This document shows positions 2,972-28,735 of a stretch of DNA of 30,446 nucleotides, piece by piece. The DNA is from a virus: IMG/VR virus record IMGVR_UViG_3300042868_010158, positions 1-30,446 of that record; one strand, 5' to 3'. The stretch's first letter is position 1; each line of letters starts with the position of its first letter. Both the position numbers and the translations under genes were made by a program. The notes under the pieces are model-generated. The model was given only the letters and a program-made list of their open reading frames with translations. It did not search any database and had not been told where the DNA came from.

Positions 2972-4464
2972 TGTTCGGGCTATCGTTTTGGAAAAAGCGC
3001 AAGCAGCAGGCCTCGCGCCCGCCGCTGCAACGTAACTTTGCCGCCGCAAAGATTGATCGGCTCACGCAAAGCTGGGGTGGCGTAACGGGTAATTCCGATG
3101 CGGTCACCAGCACCTCACTTGCGCGGCTGCGCGCACGCTCGCGCCAGCTCGCCGTTGATAACGATTATGCCCGCCGCTTTTACAAGCTGCTGCGTTCCAA
3201 TGTGGTGGGGCCGCAGGGCATCGGCATGCAGGTGCGTGCCATTTACAAGGAAGGCAAAGGCAGCGTGGTGTATGACGATGATGCCAATAAGTTAATTGAA
3301 AAGAACTGGTACGAGTGGGCAGGCAAGAAGCACTGCACCGTTGATGGGCGGCTTTCGTTGATTGATGTGCAGCAGATGCTCATCGAAACCGTAGCCAAAG
3401 ATGGCGAGATCCTCGTGCGCAAGGTGCGTGGCCGTAACTCGGGCAACCCGTTCGGGTTCGCCCTGCAACTGCTGGAGGCTGACCACCTCAACGAGAATTA
3501 CAACACCACAATGAGCAACGGCAACAAGGTGCGCATGGGCATCGAATACAACGAGTGGGATAGGCCTGTTGCCTACCATGTGTTGAACCGCCACCCAGGC
3601 GAAATAGTTGGCACGGCATACCATGCAGAAAAATATGACCGCATCCCCGCCACCGATATCCTGCACCTGTTCTTTTCCGAACGCCCATCACAATCACGCG
3701 GATTACCGTGGATGATTTCCGCCATGCGCCGCATGCGCATGCTTGGTACCTATGAGGAAAACGAGCTCGTGGCCGCAGGCGTTGCTGCATCCAAGATGGG
3801 GTTTTTCACCTCCACGGATGGCACCGAGTATAAAGGCACCGATGAGGATGCCGATGGCAATCTCATCACCGAGGCCGAGCCGGGGCTGTTTGAGCAACTG
3901 CCCGCTGGCGTAAAGTTTGAGGCATGGGATCCGCAGCACCCCACCACCTCTTTCGGCACGTTTATTAAAACGATGCTGCGCGGTGCGGCATCAGGCATGG
4001 GCGTTAGCTACAACACGCTCGCCAATGACCTTGAGGGTGTGAACTTTTCCTCGATTCGCTCGGGTACGCTTGAGGAACGTGAAATGTGGAAGATCATGCA
4101 AACGTGGATGATCGAGCATTTCTTTACGGACGTTTTCGAGAACTGGTTGCTCATGGCGTTGACCACTCAAAAAATCCCCCTCCCGCTGGCGAAGTTTGAG
4201 AAGTTTAATAGTCCTGTGTGGAGGCCTCGCGGTTGGTCATGGGTTGATCCTCTTAAAGAGGTGAAATCCAACATCGAGGCAGTCAACGCAGGCTTTATGA
4301 GCGCGCAGGATGTGGCGAGCCAGCAAGGGCAGGATATCGAGGATATCTATGCGCAGTTGGCACTTGAGCAATCGTTGCGAGAAAAGCACGGCGTGACACT
4401 CGGCGAACCGGACTTGCAGGGAATGCAGGCGACACTTGAAGTGGGGAAAGAAGATGAAGAATAA
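2971..4464 (+). CDS. Portal protein (lambda gpB family)
   Basis: This 497-residue protein forms the dodecameric ring at the unique capsid vertex through which DNA enters and leaves. Family hallmarks are the early RARSRQLAVDNDYARRFYKL segment, the VVGPQGIGMQV stretch, the FALQLLEADHLNENYN segment and ILHLFFSERPSQSRGLPWM. The mid-to-late GAASGMGVSYNTLANDLEG is the very conserved region of Phage_portal_2. Length is normal. The ATG overlaps the previous stop (TAATG). The last 11 bases overlap the start of the protease-capsid gene, in keeping with tight coupling of head genes. Confidence 0.93.
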   Translation: MFGLSFWKKRKQQASRPPLQRNFAAAKIDRLTQSWGGVTGNSDAVTSTSLARLRARSRQLAVDNDYARRFYKLLRSNVVGPQGIGMQVRAIYKEGKGSVVYDDDANKLIEKNWYEWAGKKHCTVDGRLSLIDVQQMLIETVAKDGEILVRKVRGRNSGNPFGFALQLLEADHLNENYNTTMSNGNKVRMGIEYNEWDRPVAYHVLNRHPGEIVGTAYHAEKYDRIPATDILHLFFSERPSQSRGLPWMISAMRRMRMLGTYEENELVAAGVAASKMGFFTSTDGTEYKGTDEDADGNLITEAEPGLFEQLPAGVKFEAWDPQHPTTSFGTFIKTMLRGAASGMGVSYNTLANDLEGVNFSSIRSGTLEEREMWKIMQTWMIEHFFTDVFENWLLMALTTQKIPLPLAKFEKFNSPVWRPRGWSWVDPLKEVKSNIEAVNAGFMSAQDVASQQGQDIEDIYAQLALEQSLREKHGVTLGEPDLQGMQATLEVGKEDEE

Positions 4465-18502: not shown

Positions 18503-19477
18503 ATGGCATTCATACGCAAGCGCAAAGATAGATGGGCAGCTGAGGTGCGTGCCAAAGGCGTATATCGTTGCAAGTCATTCCCCACCCGCGCCGAGGCTCA
18601 ACGATGGGCGCTTGATCTTGAAATGCAGCTTGGCAAAAAATCGTTTGTTATCAGCTCACATAGTATGCGTGAAGCAATGCAGCGTTATGCTTTAGAAGTA
18701 AGCCCATCGCACAAAGGCAGTCAGTGGGAAATCGTGCGGCTCAAGAAGCTGCAACGCGATCCAATCGCTGATATTATGCTGGCTGATATCTTGCGCGATG
18801 ATATTCAGTTGTGGATCGAGCGCCAAACCATCAGCAATGCCAGTATTAACCGTGAGCTAACGATGATCGCGGCAGTATTGCGCGAAGCGCGTGTTCGCTG
18901 GAAATGGATGGCGCACAACCCTATGGTTGATGTGAAGCGACCCAAGCAACCAGCTGGACGCGATAGGCTGCTCAGTAATGATGAGATTGATCGGCTTTTA
19001 TTGGCGCTGGAATACGATGAAAAAGCGCCAGTGAATACATTGCGCCAGGAAATAGCCGTTGCACTCTTGCTGGCCCTTGAAACCGCTATGCGCCAGGGTG
19101 AGATCTGGGGGCTGGATTGGTCACTTGTTTATCTTGATCGTAAATTTGTAACGTTGCCAGACACCAAAAACGGCATGCGTAGAGATGTGGCGCTATCACC
19201 GCGTGCGGTGAAGCTGCTCAAGAAGCTATCACCGAAAAAAAGCGGGCGCGTTTTTAATGTTGCCCAAGCAACAGCTGGCACCGTATTCCGCCGCGCCGTG
19301 GCGATGGCTGGCTTACCCAACTTTACTTTCCATGATTCTCGGCACACGGCAATCACCAACCTCGCCCGCAAACTTGATGTGCTCGATCTTGCCCGCATGG
19401 TTGGTCACCGTGATATCCGCAGCCTGCAAACCTACTACAACGCTACTGCTGAGGATATCGCCGCGCGATTGGCTTAG
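18503..19477 (+). CDS. int: Tyrosine integrase
   Basis: This 324-residue site-specific recombinase catalyses integration and excision at attP. The N-terminal arm-binding domain is at about 1-45 (FIRKRKDRWAAEVRAKGVYR), the core-binding domain at about 55-140 and the catalytic domain at 155-324. Catalytic residues are visible: Arg197 (ETAMRQGEI), Lys222 (PDTKNG), His277 and Arg280 (FHDSRHTAITNLAR), His302 (MVGHRD) and the nucleophile Tyr311 or Tyr312 (LQTYYNAT). AAGGA lies four to five bases before the ATG, inside the third right-arm repeat. The 3' end overlaps the converging Xis-like gene by 4 bases. Length and motifs are complete, so it should be active. Confidence 0.95.
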   Translation: MAFIRKRKDRWAAEVRAKGVYRCKSFPTRAEAQRWALDLEMQLGKKSFVISSHSMREAMQRYALEVSPSHKGSQWEIVRLKKLQRDPIADIMLADILRDDIQLWIERQTISNASINRELTMIAAVLREARVRWKWMAHNPMVDVKRPKQPAGRDRLLSNDEIDRLLLALEYDEKAPVNTLRQEIAVALLLALETAMRQGEIWGLDWSLVYLDRKFVTLPDTKNGMRRDVALSPRAVKLLKKLSPKKSGRVFNVAQATAGTVFRRAVAMAGLPNFTFHDSRHTAITNLARKLDVLDLARMVGHRDIRSLQTYYNATAEDIAARLA

Positions 19478-19731
19478 CGCCGCCGCATGATCCAGGTTTT
19501 CACCTCGGCAGCTACCCACCTCCGTCCGCCTGTTGGTAAAACAATGGGCTTGGGAAAGCCTGGTTTCTCCAAATAATGATTTTGTACAGTTTTCTTAGAG
19601 AGTCGTACAAATATAGATATATCATCCGCATCCCAAAGATCGTTATCGAGTGAGCGGCGATCCATGCGCGCGATTAAATCACGCACTGCGCGCGCTAATT
19701 CTGATTCCTCATCAGTTTCTTTTTTTGTCAT
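19474..19731 (-). CDS. AlpA/excisionase-like DNA-binding protein
   Basis: This 85-residue protein has an acidic N-terminal helix and a winged helix-turn-helix at about 36-80: DADDISIFVRLSKKTVQNHY, then KPGFPKPIVLPTGGRRW and VAAEVKTWI. This is the AlpA/HTH_17 pattern shared by phage excisionases. The position convergent to int and downstream of a Cro-like gene suggests it directs excision, or controls int, after induction. The ATG at 19731 overlaps the upstream gene's 3' end by 20 bases, so the two are co-transcribed leftward. Confidence 0.75.
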   Translation of the reverse strand: MTKKETDEESELARAVRDLIARMDRRSLDNDLWDADDISIFVRLSKKTVQNHYLEKPGFPKPIVLPTGGRRWVAAEVKTWIMRRR

Positions 19732-19927
19732 GCGGGTGGCCTTTCGGTGGAATTTCTAGGATTTCATTGGGGGTGAGAGCTGTAATTTCCCAAATCTTCA
19801 AAAAAAGAATTCGCATTGCTTTGAAGCGCAGACCTGTATCGATCCTGTATTGGGTAGTCCTGCTTGCTCCTATGGATTTCCATAGTTTTTCAAGAACTTC
19901 TCGACCGAGCTTATCCGACATTTTCAT
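19712..19927 (-). CDS. Cro-like regulator candidate
   Basis: This small protein (71 residues, or 69 if it starts at the second ATG, 19921) begins MSDKLGREVLEKLWKSIGAS. It contains SRTTQYRIDTGLRFKAMRIL and ends its conserved part with EITALTPNEILEIPP, an arrangement like the last helices of Cro/XRE domains. It is divergent from the CI-like gene across a 138-base operator region and lies upstream of the Xis-like gene, the usual place of Cro. Sequence identity to known Cro proteins is not evident, so the call is from size, fold pattern and position. Confidence 0.55.
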   Translation of the reverse strand: MKMSDKLGREVLEKLWKSIGASRTTQYRIDTGLRFKAMRILFLKIWEITALTPNEILEIPPKGHPHDKKRN

Positions 19928-19942
19928 AAAATATCCATCATG

Positions 19943-19994
19943 GAAACAAATCTAAATCTCATAGATAGATACTTAATGTCAAGAAACTTGTTTC
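19943..19994 (-). promoter_or_regulatory. Leftward early promoter and operator
   Basis: On the minus strand a perfect -35 TTGACA lies at 19983-19978. The -10 is less clear: GAGATT 16 bases on is the best-spaced choice and TAGATT at 19954-19949 is too far. Half-sites GAAAC (19943-19947) and the palindrome GAAAC-TT-GTTTC (19983-19994) cover the promoter and are good candidates for repressor binding. It would drive the Cro-like and Xis-like genes. Confidence 0.45.
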
Positions 19995-20003
19995 ACTTTT
20001 TTA

Positions 20004-20032
20004 TTGTCAGGTTTCATTATCTGAAATAGATT
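20004..20032 (+). promoter_or_regulatory. Rightward repressor promoter
   Basis: TTGTCA (20004-20009) and TAGATT (20027-20032) are separated by 17 bases, a good sigma-70 match. GTTTC (20011-20015) and GAAAT (20023-20027) form an imperfect inverted repeat between them, echoing the GAAAC/GTTTC half-sites of the leftward promoter, so the repressor probably controls its own gene. It lies about 30 bases before the repressor ATG. Confidence 0.5.
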
Positions 20033-20065
20033 GTGCATAACCGTTAATAACTATTAAGGTAGCCC

Positions 20066-20533
20066 ATGGCCAAGAAATCTATAAATGCCGAATCTGAGCG
20101 GCCAAAAAATAACTTGAGGTCTATCCGTGATTCGCGCGGATTAACTCAGGATGAGGTGGCCCGCATGGTTAATCCTCCAACTACAAAAAGCCAAATTTCA
20201 AAGTTGGAAAATCTATCGTTAAGACTCAACGATATTTGGGTGAGCAAGTTGTGCGAAGCCTTGGGGGTTACCCCGGATACACTCATGATGGAGGGTGTGC
20301 CTGTATCGGGAGGTTTTAAGCCAGTAGATCACGATCTGATGTCAGATATCGCCAGGGCTATCGAGAGGGTAGCTAACAAGCGCGGCCTAAAAATGTCTAA
20401 GGAGCAATTTTTAGATCTATGCGTTGAGCTTTATAATTATGTTCAAGATTATAGGAGCAAATCGGAAAAGGTGGAAATCAATGCTGCTATGGTTGAAATT
20501 TTTATGGATTTGAAGCAACGTGCAGCCATCTAA
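20066..20533 (+). CDS. CI-like repressor (XRE family)
   Basis: This 155-residue protein has an N-terminal XRE helix-turn-helix at about residues 15-75: NNLRSIRDSRGLTQDEVARM, KSQISKLENLSLRL and SKLCEALGVTPDTLM. The C-terminal half is helical and has no S24/LexA-type Ser-Lys protease motif, so induction would not be by RecA-stimulated self-cleavage as in lambda CI. An antirepressor or another signal would be needed (inference). AAGG lies about seven bases before the ATG. It diverges from the Cro-like gene and its 3' end overlaps the next gene. The region is more A+T-rich than the structural genes. Confidence 0.8.
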   Translation: MAKKSINAESERPKNNLRSIRDSRGLTQDEVARMVNPPTTKSQISKLENLSLRLNDIWVSKLCEALGVTPDTLMMEGVPVSGGFKPVDHDLMSDIARAIERVANKRGLKMSKEQFLDLCVELYNYVQDYRSKSEKVEINAAMVEIFMDLKQRAAI

Positions 20534-21002
20534 CGACAATCACAAAAATGAAAGCGAAATGATTTATTCGCTGGCCGAAAGGTTTCTGCCGGACAGGTAC
20601 TTAGACAAAGAATCTAGGGCGGTACATATACCCGTGCTTCATGTTATTGCCGCCATATTGATGTTAGGAATTTTGGGCATCGCTTTTTATGCCATCGGCA
20701 AAGTAGGCAATCAATATATCATCGATAATTCCTACACTGATAATTCAAAGTATATACAAAGCATTAATGTGCGGAACAATCCTTACGTCAAAGATTTGAG
20801 AAAATGGACAGAGTTGAGCCGTGAAGAAAAGAGCGCGATTAAGCAAGAGGCATTGATTAGATTTCCGCAAATTAAAGGCATCGGAAATGGCGTAAATTGG
20901 CGACCAGTAGCAGAATGGTTAGCGGAAGATAAGGGCGTTATTCATAGTAATCCAAGAGATTTATTCAGGGATCGGGCCAGCGAGCCAAGAGATTCTCATT
21001 GA
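20520..21002 (+). CDS. Membrane protein co-transcribed with the repressor
   Basis: This protein has 160 residues from a GTG at 20520, or 147 from the ATG at 20559. One membrane helix lies at about 38-60 (VLHVIAAILMLGILGIAFYA), with a short N-terminal cytoplasmic part and a C-terminal domain facing out (YVKDLRKWTELSREEKSAIK, then WRPVAEWLAED). No family is recognised. The GTG start lies inside the repressor gene, so it should be made in the lysogen, the usual expression of superinfection-exclusion or lysogenic-conversion proteins (inference). Its stop overlaps the converging methyltransferase gene by 7 bases. Confidence 0.6.
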   Translation: MQPSNDNHKNESEMIYSLAERFLPDRYLDKESRAVHIPVLHVIAAILMLGILGIAFYAIGKVGNQYIIDNSYTDNSKYIQSINVRNNPYVKDLRKWTELSREEKSAIKQEALIRFPQIKGIGNGVNWRPVAEWLAEDKGVIHSNPRDLFRDRASEPRDSH

Positions 21003-21736
21003 CTGCCCTCAATTTTCATTATTGCCTTACCAATAATTTCTGGGATTTGAGTCTGCACTGCATTGCCTATTGCTTCAAGTCGCTCCACCCAATAGGGAAT
21101 CCCATCATTAGCTCTGCAAAGCATGGGTGAGTATAGAGCGGATCGCTTTCTGAGATCCTCAATCCCTCCGACATTTTCGAGCCACGAAAATGGCGACTGC
21201 CACGAAAGCGGTTTCTTGTTGCCCCTCTGGCTTCCGTTGCCACCAAGGTGGGCAATAATCCAAACTCGATCCCTTCGATGCAGGGTGCCGATGGCACAAG
21301 CCGGAATAATAAATGGTTGCACGGTGTAGCCGAGATTTTCCAAGTCAAGTTTACAACGGGCGAATGCCATATTGGTGAAGTTAGCAACATTTTCGCCAAT
21401 GACCCAAGTGGGCTTCCATTCTTTAATAATTCGGCACATTTCCGGCCAGAGATCGCGGTCATCCTCCGCACCTCTTTGCTTCCCTGCGAGGGAGTAGGGT
21501 TGGCAGGGGAACCCACCGGTGATGAGATCAATGGTTTTGATTCCATCTCTTTTGAGCTTTGATTTTTTGAGTTTTCGTATGTCGTCATAAATCGGCACCT
21601 CGCTCCAATGTTTGCGTAGAATTTTTTGGCAGTAGGGTTTGATCTCGCAAAATGCGGCGGTTGTCATACCGGCCTTTTCAAGCCCTAGCGACATGCCACC
21701 AATTCCTGAAAAGAGATCTAAAACCTTCATGCTCAT
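20996..21736 (-). CDS. DNA cytosine-5 methyltransferase, compact
   Basis: This 246-residue C5 methyltransferase shows motif I (LDLFSGIGGMSLGLE, 6-20), motif IV with catalytic Cys78 (GGFPCQPYSLAG), motif VI (GENVANF, about 114-120), motif VIII (LHRRDRVWIIAHL) and motif X-like (LEAIGNAVQTQIPEIIGKAI). The target-recognition segment between motifs VIII and IX is only about 50 residues, short for the family but known in small phage enzymes. The start is MSMK at 21736, with a second ATG at 21730; no strong ribosome binding site is seen. It is transcribed leftward, away from the early operon and converging on the repressor unit. It probably protects phage DNA from host restriction. Confidence 0.92.
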   Translation of the reverse strand: MSMKVLDLFSGIGGMSLGLEKAGMTTAAFCEIKPYCQKILRKHWSEVPIYDDIRKLKKSKLKRDGIKTIDLITGGFPCQPYSLAGKQRGAEDDRDLWPEMCRIIKEWKPTWVIGENVANFTNMAFARCKLDLENLGYTVQPFIIPACAIGTLHRRDRVWIIAHLGGNGSQRGNKKPLSWQSPFSWLENVGGIEDLRKRSALYSPMLCRANDGIPYWVERLEAIGNAVQTQIPEIIGKAIMKIEGSQ

Positions 21737-24997: not shown

Positions 24998-25722
24998 GAG
25001 CGCGCCCAATTCTTTTTTCTGGTGCCATGGTGCGTGCGCTGCTCGATGGCAGCAAAACGCAAACACGGCGGGTAATAAAGCCGCAGCCTGCCGAAGGCGA
25101 ATCCATTTTTATGATGGGGTTGGTGACCCAAAGCTGGATTGCTGGAAAGGTCAATGACCTCAACCACCCGCGTGAGGTGATACCTTGCCCTTACGGTAAG
25201 CCGGGCGATCTGCTGTGGGTGCGTGAAACCATCGCATACCAGTGGCCAGATGATTGCGATAATGGGCGTGTTTATCCCGATGATGAGGGTGATGATATCC
25301 GCGAGTTTGGCAGGCCCATTAAGCAAGCCGAGTGCGATATCCTTTATGCCGCTACAGATCTCGATGCTGAATGGATGGGGGATAACGGCGAGCCATGCAA
25401 GCCAAGGTGGAAACCATCAATTCACATGCCGCGCCGCGCCTCGCGCATAACTCTCGAAATCACGGGTGTGCGCGTTGAGCAGCTTTGGGAAATTAGCGAA
25501 GCGGATGCGATAGCGGAAGGTGCGGAAAAGCTCGGCTACGATGAGAATTATAACTGTTTTGTGCGTTCCGATAACGGCACCCACCGCACGGGGTTTTTTG
25601 GCTTGTGGCATTACATCAACGGGCCTGAATCGTTTGAGGCTAACCCTTGGTTATGGGTGGTTGAGTTCAAGGTGCATCAGCGCCACGTCGATGAGATCCT
25701 GCGCGAGCGAGGTGCCGCTTAA
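24994..25722 (+). CDS. ASCH-domain-like phage protein
   Basis: This 242-residue protein starts MRARPILFSGAMVRALLDGS and KTQTRRVIKPQP, the hallmark start of a large phage family related to ASCH domains (RNA or modified-nucleotide binding, EVE/PUA-like fold). Further blocks are CPYGKPGDLLWVRETIAYQW, ARWKPSIHMPR-like (PRWKPSIHMPRRASRITLEI) and GVRVEQLWEISEADAIAEGA, ending WLWVVEFKV. It sits directly before a C5 methyltransferase gene (TAATG overlap). Such proteins often travel with DNA modification genes, so binding to modified bases is an attractive inference, but biochemical proof for this family is lacking. Confidence 0.8.
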   Translation: MRARPILFSGAMVRALLDGSKTQTRRVIKPQPAEGESIFMMGLVTQSWIAGKVNDLNHPREVIPCPYGKPGDLLWVRETIAYQWPDDCDNGRVYPDDEGDDIREFGRPIKQAECDILYAATDLDAEWMGDNGEPCKPRWKPSIHMPRRASRITLEITGVRVEQLWEISEADAIAEGAEKLGYDENYNCFVRSDNGTHRTGFFGLWHYINGPESFEANPWLWVVEFKVHQRHVDEILRERGAA

Positions 25723-27272
25723 TGCGCTACCTTTCCGTATGCTCGGGCATCGAAGCGGCCACCGTCGCATGGCACCCATTGGGTTGGGAGCCTGCTGCGT
25801 TTAGCGAGATCGAGGCTTTCCCGCGCGCGGTGCTGCAACACCATTATCCGCATGTGCCATTGCACGGCGATTTCACCACCATCAAAGGCGATGAATATGG
25901 ATCAATTGACCTTCTTGTCGGCGGAACCCCCTGCCAAAGTTTCAGCATCGCCGGTAAGCGCCTCGGATTGGATGACCCGCGTGGTAACCTATCCCTCGAA
26001 TATCTTGCCTTGGCTGTACGACTCAACGCCACCTGGTTTGTTTGGGAGAATGTCCCCGGTGTATTCTCAAGCGCCGATGGCGACGACTTCGCAGCTTTCA
26101 TCAGCGCAGCCACGGGCATCGAATACCAAGCGCCAGCAGAAGGCTGGGGCAACGCAGGCATCGCCGCAGGCCGCAGTGACCGATACGGCATTGCGTGGCG
26201 GGTGCTTGACGCTCAATATTTCGGAGTGCCACAGCGCCGCCGCCGTGTGTTCGTTATCGGATATCTTGGAGATTGGCGACCTGCCGCCGCAGTATTATTT
26301 GAGCGCGAAAGCCTGCGCGGGGATATTACGCCGCGCCGAGAAACGGGGGAAGGAATTGCCGGAACAATTGGCGCACGCACTGGCCTTAGTAGCGGAGCGC
26401 AGGACGCACAATGCGGCCACATGATTCCAGCCACGGCGGGTACGCTTTGCGCTGATTCCCACCCCGGTGCCTATACCGGGCAAGATGCCTATAGCGATCG
26501 CTTAATCCCGTGGCCGCAGAATGAAGTGAGCCACACGCTGCGCGCCCAACATGACGCAAGCGAGGATGGCAGCGGGCGCGGCATCCCGCTGGTGACGCAA
26601 TGCCTGCCTATCAATACGCAGATTGCCATGCGTCATAACGAGCTGGGCGAAGGCACTGGCATGGGCATTGGTGCGCCCGGTGATCCGGCATTCACTTTGC
26701 AAGCCCACCACCATCATGCTGTGGCTATTCCCATTCACGACAAAGCAACCCGTCACCAAGGCGGCGGGCGTGAGGGTAACGATGGATGCAGCAACGGCCT
26801 AGGTGTTGGCAAGCAGGGCGATCCCATGCCAACCCTTGATTGCAACAGCCGCCATGCCGTTGCGTTCGATTGCAAAGCCAGCGCCAGCCGCGATATCGCC
26901 CTTGGGCCAGTAAGCCCGACCTTGCGCGCCATGCCGGGTAGCGGCGGCGGGCAAGTGGCAGTGGCATTCGCGCAAAACACCCGCGACGAAGTGCGCGAAA
27001 TGAATGTGGTGGGTGCGCTATCCGCAGATCCAGGCATGAAACAAACCAGCTTCTTGCGCCTCGGTATGGGCGTGCGCCGCCTAACACCACGCGAGTGCGA
27101 ACGCCTGCAAGGCTTTCCCGATGACTACACGCTCATCACCGTGCGCGGAAAACCCGCCGCCGATGCACCGCGCTATAAATCCCTCGGCAACAGCATGGCA
27201 CGCCCCGTCATGGAATGGATCGGCCAGCGGATCCAAGAAGTTCAAACCATCCTCACTGCAAGGAGGCATTAA
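25722..27272 (+). CDS. DNA cytosine-5 methyltransferase with long variable region
   Basis: This 516-residue C5 methyltransferase shows motif I (YLSVCSGIEAATVAW, 3-17), motif IV with catalytic Cys71 (VGGTPCQSFSIAGKR), motif VI (WENVPGVFSS, about 108-117) and motif VIII (GVPQRRRRVFVIGYLGDWR, 168-186). The C-terminal part has RRLTPRECERLQGFPDDYT and YKSLGNSMARPVMEWIG. Between about 200 and 440 lies a long region with loosely repeated units ending in HHAVA/RHAVA-like steps (GIGAPGDPAFTLQAHHHHAV and GVGKQGDPMPTLDCNSRHAV), perhaps several target-recognition elements, as known in multi-specific phage enzymes. It is the second cytosine methyltransferase here. A separate reading frame of 175 codons is embedded at 25897-26424. 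Confidence 0.93.
   Translation: MRYLSVCSGIEAATVAWHPLGWEPAAFSEIEAFPRAVLQHHYPHVPLHGDFTTIKGDEYGSIDLLVGGTPCQSFSIAGKRLGLDDPRGNLSLEYLALAVRLNATWFVWENVPGVFSSADGDDFAAFISAATGIEYQAPAEGWGNAGIAAGRSDRYGIAWRVLDAQYFGVPQRRRRVFVIGYLGDWRPAAAVLFERESLRGDITPRRETGEGIAGTIGARTGLSSGAQDAQCGHMIPATAGTLCADSHPGAYTGQDAYSDRLIPWPQNEVSHTLRAQHDASEDGSGRGIPLVTQCLPINTQIAMRHNELGEGTGMGIGAPGDPAFTLQAHHHHAVAIPIHDKATRHQGGGREGNDGCSNGLGVGKQGDPMPTLDCNSRHAVAFDCKASASRDIALGPVSPTLRAMPGSGGGQVAVAFAQNTRDEVREMNVVGALSADPGMKQTSFLRLGMGVRRLTPRECERLQGFPDDYTLITVRGKPAADAPRYKSLGNSMARPVMEWIGQRIQEVQTILTARRH
25897..26424 (+). CDS. Overprinted frame inside the methyltransferase gene
   Basis: In another frame of the same strand a 175-codon frame starts MDQLTFLSAEPPAKVSASPV, with AAAGG (25884-25888) eight bases before the ATG. 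The C-terminal part, VCSLSDILEIGDLPPQYYLS then AKACAGILRRAEKRGKELPE and QLAHALALV, looks like a real helical domain with heptad spacing. From memory, very similar sequences are annotated as stand-alone hypothetical proteins in other phage genomes, also associated with cytosine methyltransferase genes. It may be a true overlapping gene, or a shadow of the conserved catalytic domain; sequence alone cannot decide. Confidence 0.45.
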   Translation: MDQLTFLSAEPPAKVSASPVSASDWMTRVVTYPSNILPWLYDSTPPGLFGRMSPVYSQAPMATTSQLSSAQPRASNTKRQQKAGATQASPQAAVTDTALRGGCLTLNISECHSAAAVCSLSDILEIGDLPPQYYLSAKACAGILRRAEKRGKELPEQLAHALALVAERRTHNAAT

Positions 27273-27274
27273 CC

Positions 27275-27517
27275 ATGCGAAAGATTAACCCCGAAAAGAT
27301 TAACCCCACGGCGGCGGTTTCGACCATCACCGTGGCCTATACCTCCCTCGTTATCGGCCTCAAACTTGATGGCTACATAGCCATTAGCTGGACGCTGCTG
27401 CTTGCCCCACTATGGGCGCCCATTGCGATGGTGATGGGTTTGATGGCGGCATTGTGCGTGGCATGGCTGGTGTTGTGGTGCATCTGCGCCGCTGCACGAA
27501 AGGATGGTGGCCAGTGA
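27275..27517 (+). CDS. Small two-helix membrane protein
   Basis: This 80-residue protein starts MRKINPEKINPTAAVSTITV, with a strong AAGGAGG eight bases upstream. Two hydrophobic segments (about 16-37 and 43-72: ISWTLLLAPLWAPIAMVMGL then MAALCVAWLVLWCIC) end in a basic tail. It lies between the methyltransferase and the replication initiator, whose GTG start overlaps its stop. It could be a small inhibitor or holin-like protein; no motif supports any role. Confidence 0.6.
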   Translation: MRKINPEKINPTAAVSTITVAYTSLVIGLKLDGYIAISWTLLLAPLWAPIAMVMGLMAALCVAWLVLWCICAAARKDGGQ

Positions 27518-28455
27518 GCAACGGACGTTTCTGCATCATTCCCGCCCGCGCGCTCGGTGATAAGCGGCTCAACCGTACAGATATCATGGTGCTTAATGCG
27601 CTCGGCCTGTTCGGCAACAAGGAGGGCTGGAGCTTCCCGTCAACCAGCACGATCGCGGATATGATCGGCGCGCACCGTGTATCGGTGAGCAAGGCGCTAT
27701 CCAGTTTGGCCGCATGCGGTTATGTGGAAACGCGCACGCGGTACCGTACCGATGGTGGGCAGACCTCTAACGAGTATCGCATCCTGTTTGATGCACCCAG
27801 CGTGCAGGGTAGCCTTGACTTAGGCATGCCATCCGCGCCGGATTATGATGGTGAACCCCCTGTAGCGGATTCACTGCCCCCCTGTAGCGAAACCGCTACA
27901 CCCCCTGTAGCGGCTGGTACTACACCCCCTGTAACTGAGCCGCTACACCATATTAAGGAACCTACCTTAACTCCCCATTCTAACACTGCTTTGCTTTCCG
28001 CAGGCGATGCGAGCGCGGATGCAAAAGGGATCCTCCCCGAGTTCGCCGAGGTGTACCAGCGGGTGCTTGAGATCCTCAACTCACCCACGCCCTACAGCGG
28101 GGGGCCGGTTCACCAATGGCTTGCTGGCGGTGCCATCCCCGAGGTGGATATCTACCCCACCATCAAGCGCATTGCAGCAGGCCGCGAGAAGCCACCAACC
28201 ACGCTCAAATACTTCACCCAAGCCATTGCCGATGCAGTGGCGGATCGCCTCAAACCCATGCCAGAAGGTAACCCCTATGCAAAACCTAGCGCAGCACACC
28301 AGCAACATCATCGCCCAAGCAAAACAGAACGGCTCATTGCAGCAGCCAAACGGGCAAACGGCGGTAGCTTTGGCTTTGATGCAGTGCCCCAAAGCCCAAA
28401 CGGAATTGACGGTGATGCTCATGCAGTGCTTTCAAGCATTGAAACTGTACGGTAA
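27514..28455 (+). CDS. Replication initiator (lambda O-like, HTH)
   Basis: This 313-residue protein starts at a GTG (MSNGRFCIIPARAL) that overlaps the upstream stop (GTGA); an in-frame start at 27412 would lie over the membrane protein gene. Residues about 18-90 are a winged helix (HTH_36): RLNRTDIMVLNALGLFGNKE, FPSTSTIADMIGAHRVSVSK, ALSSLAACGYVETRTRY. A Pro/Thr linker (about 110-150) is encoded by DNA holding the iteron array. The C-terminal half has a helical block (AEVYQRVLEILNSPTPYSGG, then TLKYFTQAIADAV). Location of the origin inside the initiator gene and a helicase-loader-like gene downstream copy the lambda O/P arrangement. Confidence 0.75.
   Translation: MSNGRFCIIPARALGDKRLNRTDIMVLNALGLFGNKEGWSFPSTSTIADMIGAHRVSVSKALSSLAACGYVETRTRYRTDGGQTSNEYRILFDAPSVQGSLDLGMPSAPDYDGEPPVADSLPPCSETATPPVAAGTTPPVTEPLHHIKEPTLTPHSNTALLSAGDASADAKGILPEFAEVYQRVLEILNSPTPYSGGPVHQWLAGGAIPEVDIYPTIKRIAAGREKPPTTLKYFTQAIADAVADRLKPMPEGNPYAKPSAAHQQHHRPSKTERLIAAAKRANGGSFGFDAVPQSPNGIDGDAHAVLSSIETVR
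27856..27947. repeat. Iteron array, probable replication origin
   Basis: Four direct copies of CCCCCTGTAGCG (27856, 27878, 27901; a shorter CCCCCTGTAA at 27925) are spaced 22, 23 and 24 bp, about two helical turns. Two inverted copies CGCTACA (27894-27900 and 27941-27947) pair with them; TGTAGCG-AAAC-CGCTACA at 27883-27900 is a perfect 7-bp hairpin. A more A+T-rich stretch (about 27948-27995) follows, fitting an unwinding region. The array lies in the linker-coding part of the initiator gene, as in lambda ori. Confidence 0.75.
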
Positions 28456-28735
28456 GGAACCCGAGCAGATCGAGGGCGTGATCGCCATGTTTCGCATGGT
28501 GCTGGCGGATTACCCGATGGATAAGATCCGCGCGGCGTTCGGGTTCTACTTGCGCCATAACAGCGAAATGCCCGCCCCAGCCGATATCGCCACCATCATC
28601 GAGCGTGGTGGTAAACCACCGTTTGAGCGTGCGGTGTATGTAAGCCTATCCAAGAAGCATCCCGAGGAACGTACCGCCGCCGAGTGGGAATATATGCGCG
28701 ACTATGAGCGTTTCACCATCAGCGGTAAGCACTAA
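28277..28735 (+). CDS. Helicase-loader-like replication protein (P-like position)
   Basis: This 152-residue protein starts at the ATG at 28277 (MQNLAQHTSNIIAQAKQNGS), with AGAAGG eight bases upstream, inside the 3' end of the initiator gene. A frame reaching back to 28007 is open but lies over the initiator. The core LYGKEPEQIEGVIAMFRMVL, ADYPMDKIRAAFGFYLRHNS and EMPAPADIATIIERGGKPPF recurs in alphaproteobacterial phages right after an initiator gene. The ending EYMRDYERFTIS is also typical. By position it may recruit the host DnaB helicase; no ATPase motif is present, so this is inference. Confidence 0.65.
   Translation: MQNLAQHTSNIIAQAKQNGSLQQPNGQTAVALALMQCPKAQTELTVMLMQCFQALKLYGKEPEQIEGVIAMFRMVLADYPMDKIRAAFGFYLRHNSEMPAPADIATIIERGGKPPFERAVYVSLSKKHPEERTAAEWEYMRDYERFTISGKH

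Follow-up and report, generated by a model that had tools for sequence, protein, structure and literature searches.

A probable iteron origin nested in the HTH_36 initiator gene of a temperate tailed phage

The initiator gene and its surroundings

The stretch of DNA analyzed here (the window) is a viral record of 30,446 bp. It carries a gene for a replication initiator (Table 1), whose product matched the Pfam family HTH_36 above the family cut-off (E = 1.8 × 10−7) and PHROG families of replication initiation or O-like proteins (top match phrog_270, E = 1 × 10−11). In an AlphaFold2 model, the N-terminal part formed a winged helix (wHTH) whose structural matches comprised the N-terminal domain of pSK41 RepA (4pt7, Z = 9.3), a Rep–DNA complex (5kbj, Z = 8.2), and the N-terminal domain of DnaD (2v79), together with many generic winged helices. 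A sequence search of the PDB yielded chance matches only, and RepA_N was absent among the Pfam matches of the initiator up to E = 1, so its likeness to RepA_N proteins is one of fold only. Based on these family matches and the model, the N-terminal wHTH is predicted to be a sequence-specific DNA-binding domain. pLDDT was below 50 across aa 96–177, a region that includes the residues encoded by the repeats described below. An earlier note on this DNA had placed repeats in the linker-coding part of an HTH initiator; the HTH_36 match and the predicted disorder of the linker agree with this. The C-terminal part showed a weak match to phrog_3926 (replication initiation protein, E = 0.0016) and is presumed to recruit the replisome.

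Two C5-cytosine DNA methylase genes were present within this one 30-kb phage. A stretch of low GC content (19500–21500, about 42–46% compared to 55%) lies on the edge of the lysogeny region. Also, the sequence AAAGATTAACCCC occurs twice, exactly and 15 bp apart, at 27280–27307, at the start of a small membrane-protein gene before the initiator gene.

Table 1 Features of the window
Feature	Position	Strand	Remarks
Integrase gene	18503–19477		Adjoins low-GC stretch
Cro/CI-type HTH gene	20066–20533		At low-GC stretch
C5-cytosine DNA methylase gene	20999–21736	−	
C5-cytosine DNA methylase gene	25722–27272	+	Also strong match to phrog_864 (labelled DNA primase)
HTH_36 replication initiator gene	27514–28455	+	313 aa; alignment with relatives L001 and L006 places the start at GTG
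Winged-helix DNA-binding domain (predicted)	27529–27792	+	About aa 6–93; AlphaFold2 model, pLDDT 81–92 over aa 11–90
Linker coding region	27802–28035	+	aa 97–174; predicted disordered; holds iterons and A+T-richer flank
Iteron unit 1	27856–27877	+	CCCCC-TGTAGCG, right arm degenerate
Imperfect inverted repeat, 40 bp	27861–27900	none	Spans units 1–2; inverted-repeat call and strand folds
Iteron unit 2	27878–27900	+	CCCCC-TGTAGCG-aaac-CGCTACA, perfect dyad
Iteron unit 3	27901–27924	+	CCCCC-TGTAGCG-gctggt-ACTACA
Imperfect inverted repeat, 42 bp	27906–27947	none	Spans units 3–4, matches that of units 1–2
Iteron unit 4	27925–27947	+	CCCCC-TGTAACT-gagc-CGCTACA
A+T-richer flank, candidate unwinding element	27948–27997	none	60% A+T
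C-terminal part of initiator	28036–28455	+	Not alignable with C-termini of L001 or L006
Next gene	28277–28735	+	Overlaps 3′ end of initiator gene; all-helical in low-confidence model (pLDDT 54)

Anatomy of the repeat array

Four iteron units of about 23 bp occupy positions 27856–27947, inside the linker-coding part of the initiator gene. The earlier note had listed four direct copies of a 12-mer. Three of them are exact (CCCCCTGTAGCG at 27856, 27878, and 27901), but the fourth, at 27925, is degenerate (CCCCCTGTAACT, two mismatches to CCCCCTGTAGCG), and the natural unit is about 23 bp long, of the form C5-TGTAGCG-N4-CGCTACA-like, rather than the 12-mer. Given this form, half-sites alternate forward and reverse every 11–12 bp around CCCCC, neighbours being separated in turn by the C tract and by about 4–6 bp. 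The two inverted CGCTACA sites reported before were located at 27894–27900 and 27941–27947, but a third, partial reverse half-site (ACTACA, 27919–27924) had been missed. Units 1 and 4 are imperfect, and unit 3 forms together with 27894–27900 a perfect C5-centred palindrome (CGCTACA-CCCCC-TGTAGCG). Successive units begin after 22, 23, and 24 bp, which places the copies in different codon frames.

With up to two mismatches allowed, the 12-mer occurred eight times in the window (2.4 expected), a count reached in none of 100 shuffles. In none of 5000 synonymous-codon shuffles of the initiator gene did any 12-mer reach three copies, and none of 500 codon shuffles equaled the five 7-base half-sites (CGCTACA/TGTAGCG) found within 87 bp. 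The search for the 12-mer elsewhere in the genome, suggested in the earlier note, returned only one further copy with at most one mismatch in the rest of the 30,446-bp record (23397, − strand).

Selection on the repeat DNA

Neither direct relatives of the initiator (at 1 × 10−5, among 50,697 phage records) nor relatives of the iteron DNA were found among phage records, and a class-wide pattern scan of 385 genomes returned only G001, the genome holding L006, and one low-complexity match. The evidence on selection comes from the only two close relatives found: (i) L006, the closest, from the Alphaproteobacteria MAG UBA3002, with a wHTH 81% identical to that of the window; and (ii) L001, the more distant IMG/VR phage 3300048597_000646, with a wHTH 69% identical. 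Since a whole-gene count of 7-mers was too blunt for the window, a local count over 130 bp was adopted; for L001, whose units are less uniform, this count fell short of significance (p = 0.15).

Of the residues identical between the window and L006, 50 of 79 in the wHTH but 2 of 25 in the repeats showed synonymous differences (Fisher p = 1.3 × 10−6). Amino-acid identity was about equal in the two regions, i.e. the peptide encoded by the repeats is no better conserved. The earlier note had named loss of the repeats at synonymous sites in relatives as the observation that would speak against its reading; the opposite was seen. In unit 2 of L006, TGTAGTG-aatc-CACTACA replaces TGTAGCG-aaac-CGCTACA, so that the dyad is kept; this paired arm change consists of one of the two synonymous changes and an adjacent non-synonymous one. 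In L001, all half-sites are altered together (CATAGCG/CGCTATG-like for TGTAGCG/CGCTACA) and the C tracts are unchanged. Unit spacing is 22/23/24 bp in the window and L006 and 20/23/24 bp in L001. Judged from these comparisons, selection acts on the DNA of the repeats, and the regularly spaced dyads in the linker region of the initiator gene are conserved as DNA.

Repeats of this kind might also have arisen without any role for the DNA itself, from a proline-rich repetitive peptide or by slipped tandem duplication, and part of the encoded linker indeed reads PPV/PPC repeatedly. The copies lie in different frames, however, synonymous sites are frozen while amino acids vary, and arms change in pairs in the units of the relatives. 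We regard this explanation as scarcely credible.

The A+T-richer flank

The array is followed by a 50-bp stretch that the earlier note had called A+T-richer. The label is fair though modest: A+T content is 60% compared to 44.6% for the window, in which 4.9% of the 50-bp stretches are as rich. The corresponding flank in L006 and L001 also contains 60% A+T, and, across 24 initiators, A+T content was higher on the 3′ than on the 5′ side of the array in 18 (Wilcoxon p = 7 × 10−4). Cumulative GC skew, proposed as a further check, showed no minimum at the array, a measure that is uninformative for a 30-kb record without terminal repeats.

Exchanged C-termini and the next gene

Identity among the initiators of the window, L006, and L001 stops after the iterons, and BLASTP of the window C-terminus against those of L001 and L006 gave no meaningful match. 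The C-terminus of L001 is a DnaA N-terminal domain (DnaA domain I; PF11638, DnaA_N; E = 1.6 × 10−10), which is the helicase-contacting domain of DnaA. L006 has a different C-terminus, followed by a gene for a DnaC-like helicase loader (phrog_50, E = 6 × 10−68). The window initiator ends in yet another C-terminus, and the gene downstream of it encodes a small protein. Because identity stops after the iterons and the three C-termini differ, the wHTH and the iterons act as one cassette joined to differing recruiting ends. In L001, PF11638 at the end of the initiator (3790–4053) looks as if a helicase-recruiting domain had been borrowed and attached to the wHTH initiator of a phage; the ending of L119 looks similar.

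The next gene had been described as helicase-loader-like, a label we could not uphold. Its product matched no Pfam or NCBIfam entry and no loader family, hitting only weak PHROGs of unknown function, and its structural model is of low confidence. A relative with 45% identity was found in L193, where it follows a DUF1376 replication-type protein. The gene for the latter (L193, 2262–3065) contains repeated TAGCAATGC/TAGCATTGC motifs; in-gene repeats may thus extend to DUF1376 initiators.

Comparison with known systems

In phage lambda, ori consists of four 18-bp dyads and an A+T-rich region within O (PMC7466680, PMC6022878). The annotated iterons (NC_001416) are 20, 24, and 23 bp apart and lie in different frames of O, with a spacing nearly that of the window. 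Four dyad iterons in a linker and in different frames, A+T-richer DNA on the 3′ side (modestly so in the window), and a gene in the partner position after the initiator are common to both. The two differ in several respects. Lambda iterons are A-centred (ATCCCTCAAAACGAGGGA), whereas the window sites read C5-TGTAGCG-n4-CGCTACA and do not qualify as lambda-type iterons; the A+T-rich stretch reaches 72% in lambda compared to 60% in the window; the window initiator belongs by Pfam match to HTH_36; and no P homologue was recognised in the window. Of the proposed copy of the lambda ori/O/P design, the ori/O layout is supported but the P part is not, the next gene being P-like by position only.

Four Rep boxes lie in the middle of the rep gene of plasmid pSK41, where the linker is dispensable (PMC5703833). 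RepA_N plasmids (pSK41, pTZ2162) share with the window an N-terminal wHTH of similar fold (4pt7, 5kbj), an origin-encoded linker, and an exchangeable C-terminal domain (PMC5703833, PMC7145576). A tracts are the point of convergence for the iterons of lambda and RepA_N plasmids (PMC6022878, PMC7145576), and binding of pSK41 Rep fell tenfold upon G+C-rich replacement (PMC5703833); in contrast, the window carries a poly-C tract. In the staphylococcal plasmid pPR9, the initiator combines an HTH_36 (pfam13730) N-terminal domain and an origin region of its own; the two were exchanged together onto another C-terminus, and autonomous replication was reported (PMC5703833). Although pPR9 is a Firmicute plasmid whose likeness to the window rests on the HTH_36 domain and origin region, this precedent invalidates the argument for novelty from the fold, on which the earlier note had taken an HTH_36 initiator with a nested origin to be new. 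The nested-origin design is already known (lambda O; pSK41 RepA_N; with HTH_36 in pPR9). What sets the window apart from lambda and RepA_N plasmids is the type of site, with its poly-C tract.

The array could also be an operator rather than an origin, through which the initiator would repress or tune expression of its own gene. wHTH domains are commonly repressors, plasmid initiators often autoregulate, and dyad sites suit the binding of dimers. Yet the array lies about 340 bp into the gene, downstream of the part encoding the DNA-binding domain, its A+T-richer flank is on the 3′ side, and arrays laid out in this way act as origins in lambda and pSK41. We consider an operator of this sort unlikely; autoregulation could coexist with origin function.

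Occurrence in other phages

In a sample picked by protein family and not by repeats (phrog_270 in Alphaproteobacteria, 23 usable genes), 10 genes contained significant local repeats (codon-shuffle p ≤ 0.01), typically 11–12 or 22–24 bp apart, in at least two frames, and of unrelated sequence. Among named phages, Nostoc phage Nsp-JY10 (PP395642, L204) has CCGGCA-CCCCC-TGCCGG sites that resemble those of the window in their place within the gene and their geometry, but not in arm sequence; its gene is annotated as encoding a hypothetical protein. Bradyrhizobium phage ppBdUSDA122-1 carries GGGCACGGGTGCCC sites within the corresponding gene. In both phages, as in the window, a cytosine methyltransferase gene lies upstream. 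In-gene repeats were below significance in the other named phages tested (Margaery, Altadena, MEP301, and phiNP), and are therefore common rather than universal.

Scanning IMG/VR for the motif pair of the window, two CCCCCTGTA 21–25 bp apart, yielded 41 loci, 19 of which lie, as judged by reading, in the linker of wHTH initiators of uncultured phages. With sites of the same form in many other initiators, the array is not the new, isolated iteron set that had been suggested. A stricter scan for repeated TACACCCCCTGTA gave 12 loci; five were already among the 19, and the seven new ones, several of them near relatives of each other, were all in wHTH-type ORFs (by reading). The control pattern ATGTCCCCC gave 15 loci, but the ratio of 41 to 15 is not a clean enrichment statistic, since the control was not neutral: four of its loci (L180, L182, L185, and L190) are by reading C-tract iterons in wHTH initiators. 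These four show a second type of C-tract site, TGTCCCCC/GGGGGACA dyads, in wHTH linkers. In agreement with the reading as wHTH initiators, bulk family scans matched 15 of 34 ORFs to phrog_678, 13 to phrog_270, and 12 to HTH_36.

Within a locus, the outer three bases of one arm complemented those of the other at 1.85 of 3 positions, compared to 1.04 when arms were permuted among the 20 loci (a level not matched in any of 5000 permutations), and all half-sites of one locus, in both orientations, tended toward the same outer bases. The C tract lay on the coding strand in six of the 19 initiators and on the template strand in 13, which argues against a function in the peptide or the mRNA. The latter possibility, hairpins in the mRNA that control translation or attenuation, deserves consideration, as both strands of the array fold strongly (about −40 kcal/mol) and paired arm changes fit RNA stems too. 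Sense and antisense strands are equally stable in the window, however, the C tract occurs on either strand in related initiators, and RNA stems do not require outer bases shared locus-wide in both orientations. We judge mRNA hairpins to be very improbable. Both the RNA-hairpin and the peptide-repeat readings were rejected given the strand-independent C tract and the frozen synonymous sites.

There is, in our estimate, an even chance that this shared site grammar marks a large, unrecognised class of phage origins. The grammar would consist of alternating half-site arrays with an inner TG..CA (often TGTA/TACA) flanking a C5–C9 tract and locus-specific palindromic outer 3 bp, and the arrays would sit in the linker-coding part of the very wHTH initiator gene whose product reads them. 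The open literature searched yielded no account of nested iterons with C tracts, which is not proof of their absence, and the passages found in annotation papers on HTH_36 phage replication genes make no mention of such nesting.

A model for initiation and its implications

Taken together, the array very probably serves a temperate tailed phage, itself probably of an alphaproteobacterium, as a self-nested iteron origin, with binding and origin activity inferred from the features above. The N-terminal wHTH of the initiator would bind, probably as dimers, to the four dyads that lie, within its own gene, amid the coding regions for the DNA-binding and C-terminal domains. Cooperative binding over about 90 bp may then build an O-some-like complex, which would strain and possibly melt the A+T-richer DNA on the 3′ side of the gene. 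Recruitment of the host helicase for loading would fall to the C-terminal part, perhaps aided by the protein that the next gene encodes. As the protein and its site share a single stretch of DNA, the wHTH and the iterons may move as one specificity cassette and be joined to different C-terminal recruiters.

The array offers a place to test where the phage starts replicating. The synonymous-site evidence shows that the wHTH evolves together with its putative binding sites as a single cassette, whereas the C-terminal part is swapped, in one case for DnaA domain I. Uncultured phages, whose origins would otherwise stay hidden, can be screened for this signature in their initiator genes. If the shared grammar holds true, the origin specificity of many such phages would be readable from their initiator genes alone. 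Also, a recognition code between the wHTH helix and the outer arm bases could be derived, for which the window family provides a candidate (AHR to AHH with TGTAGCG to CATAGCG).
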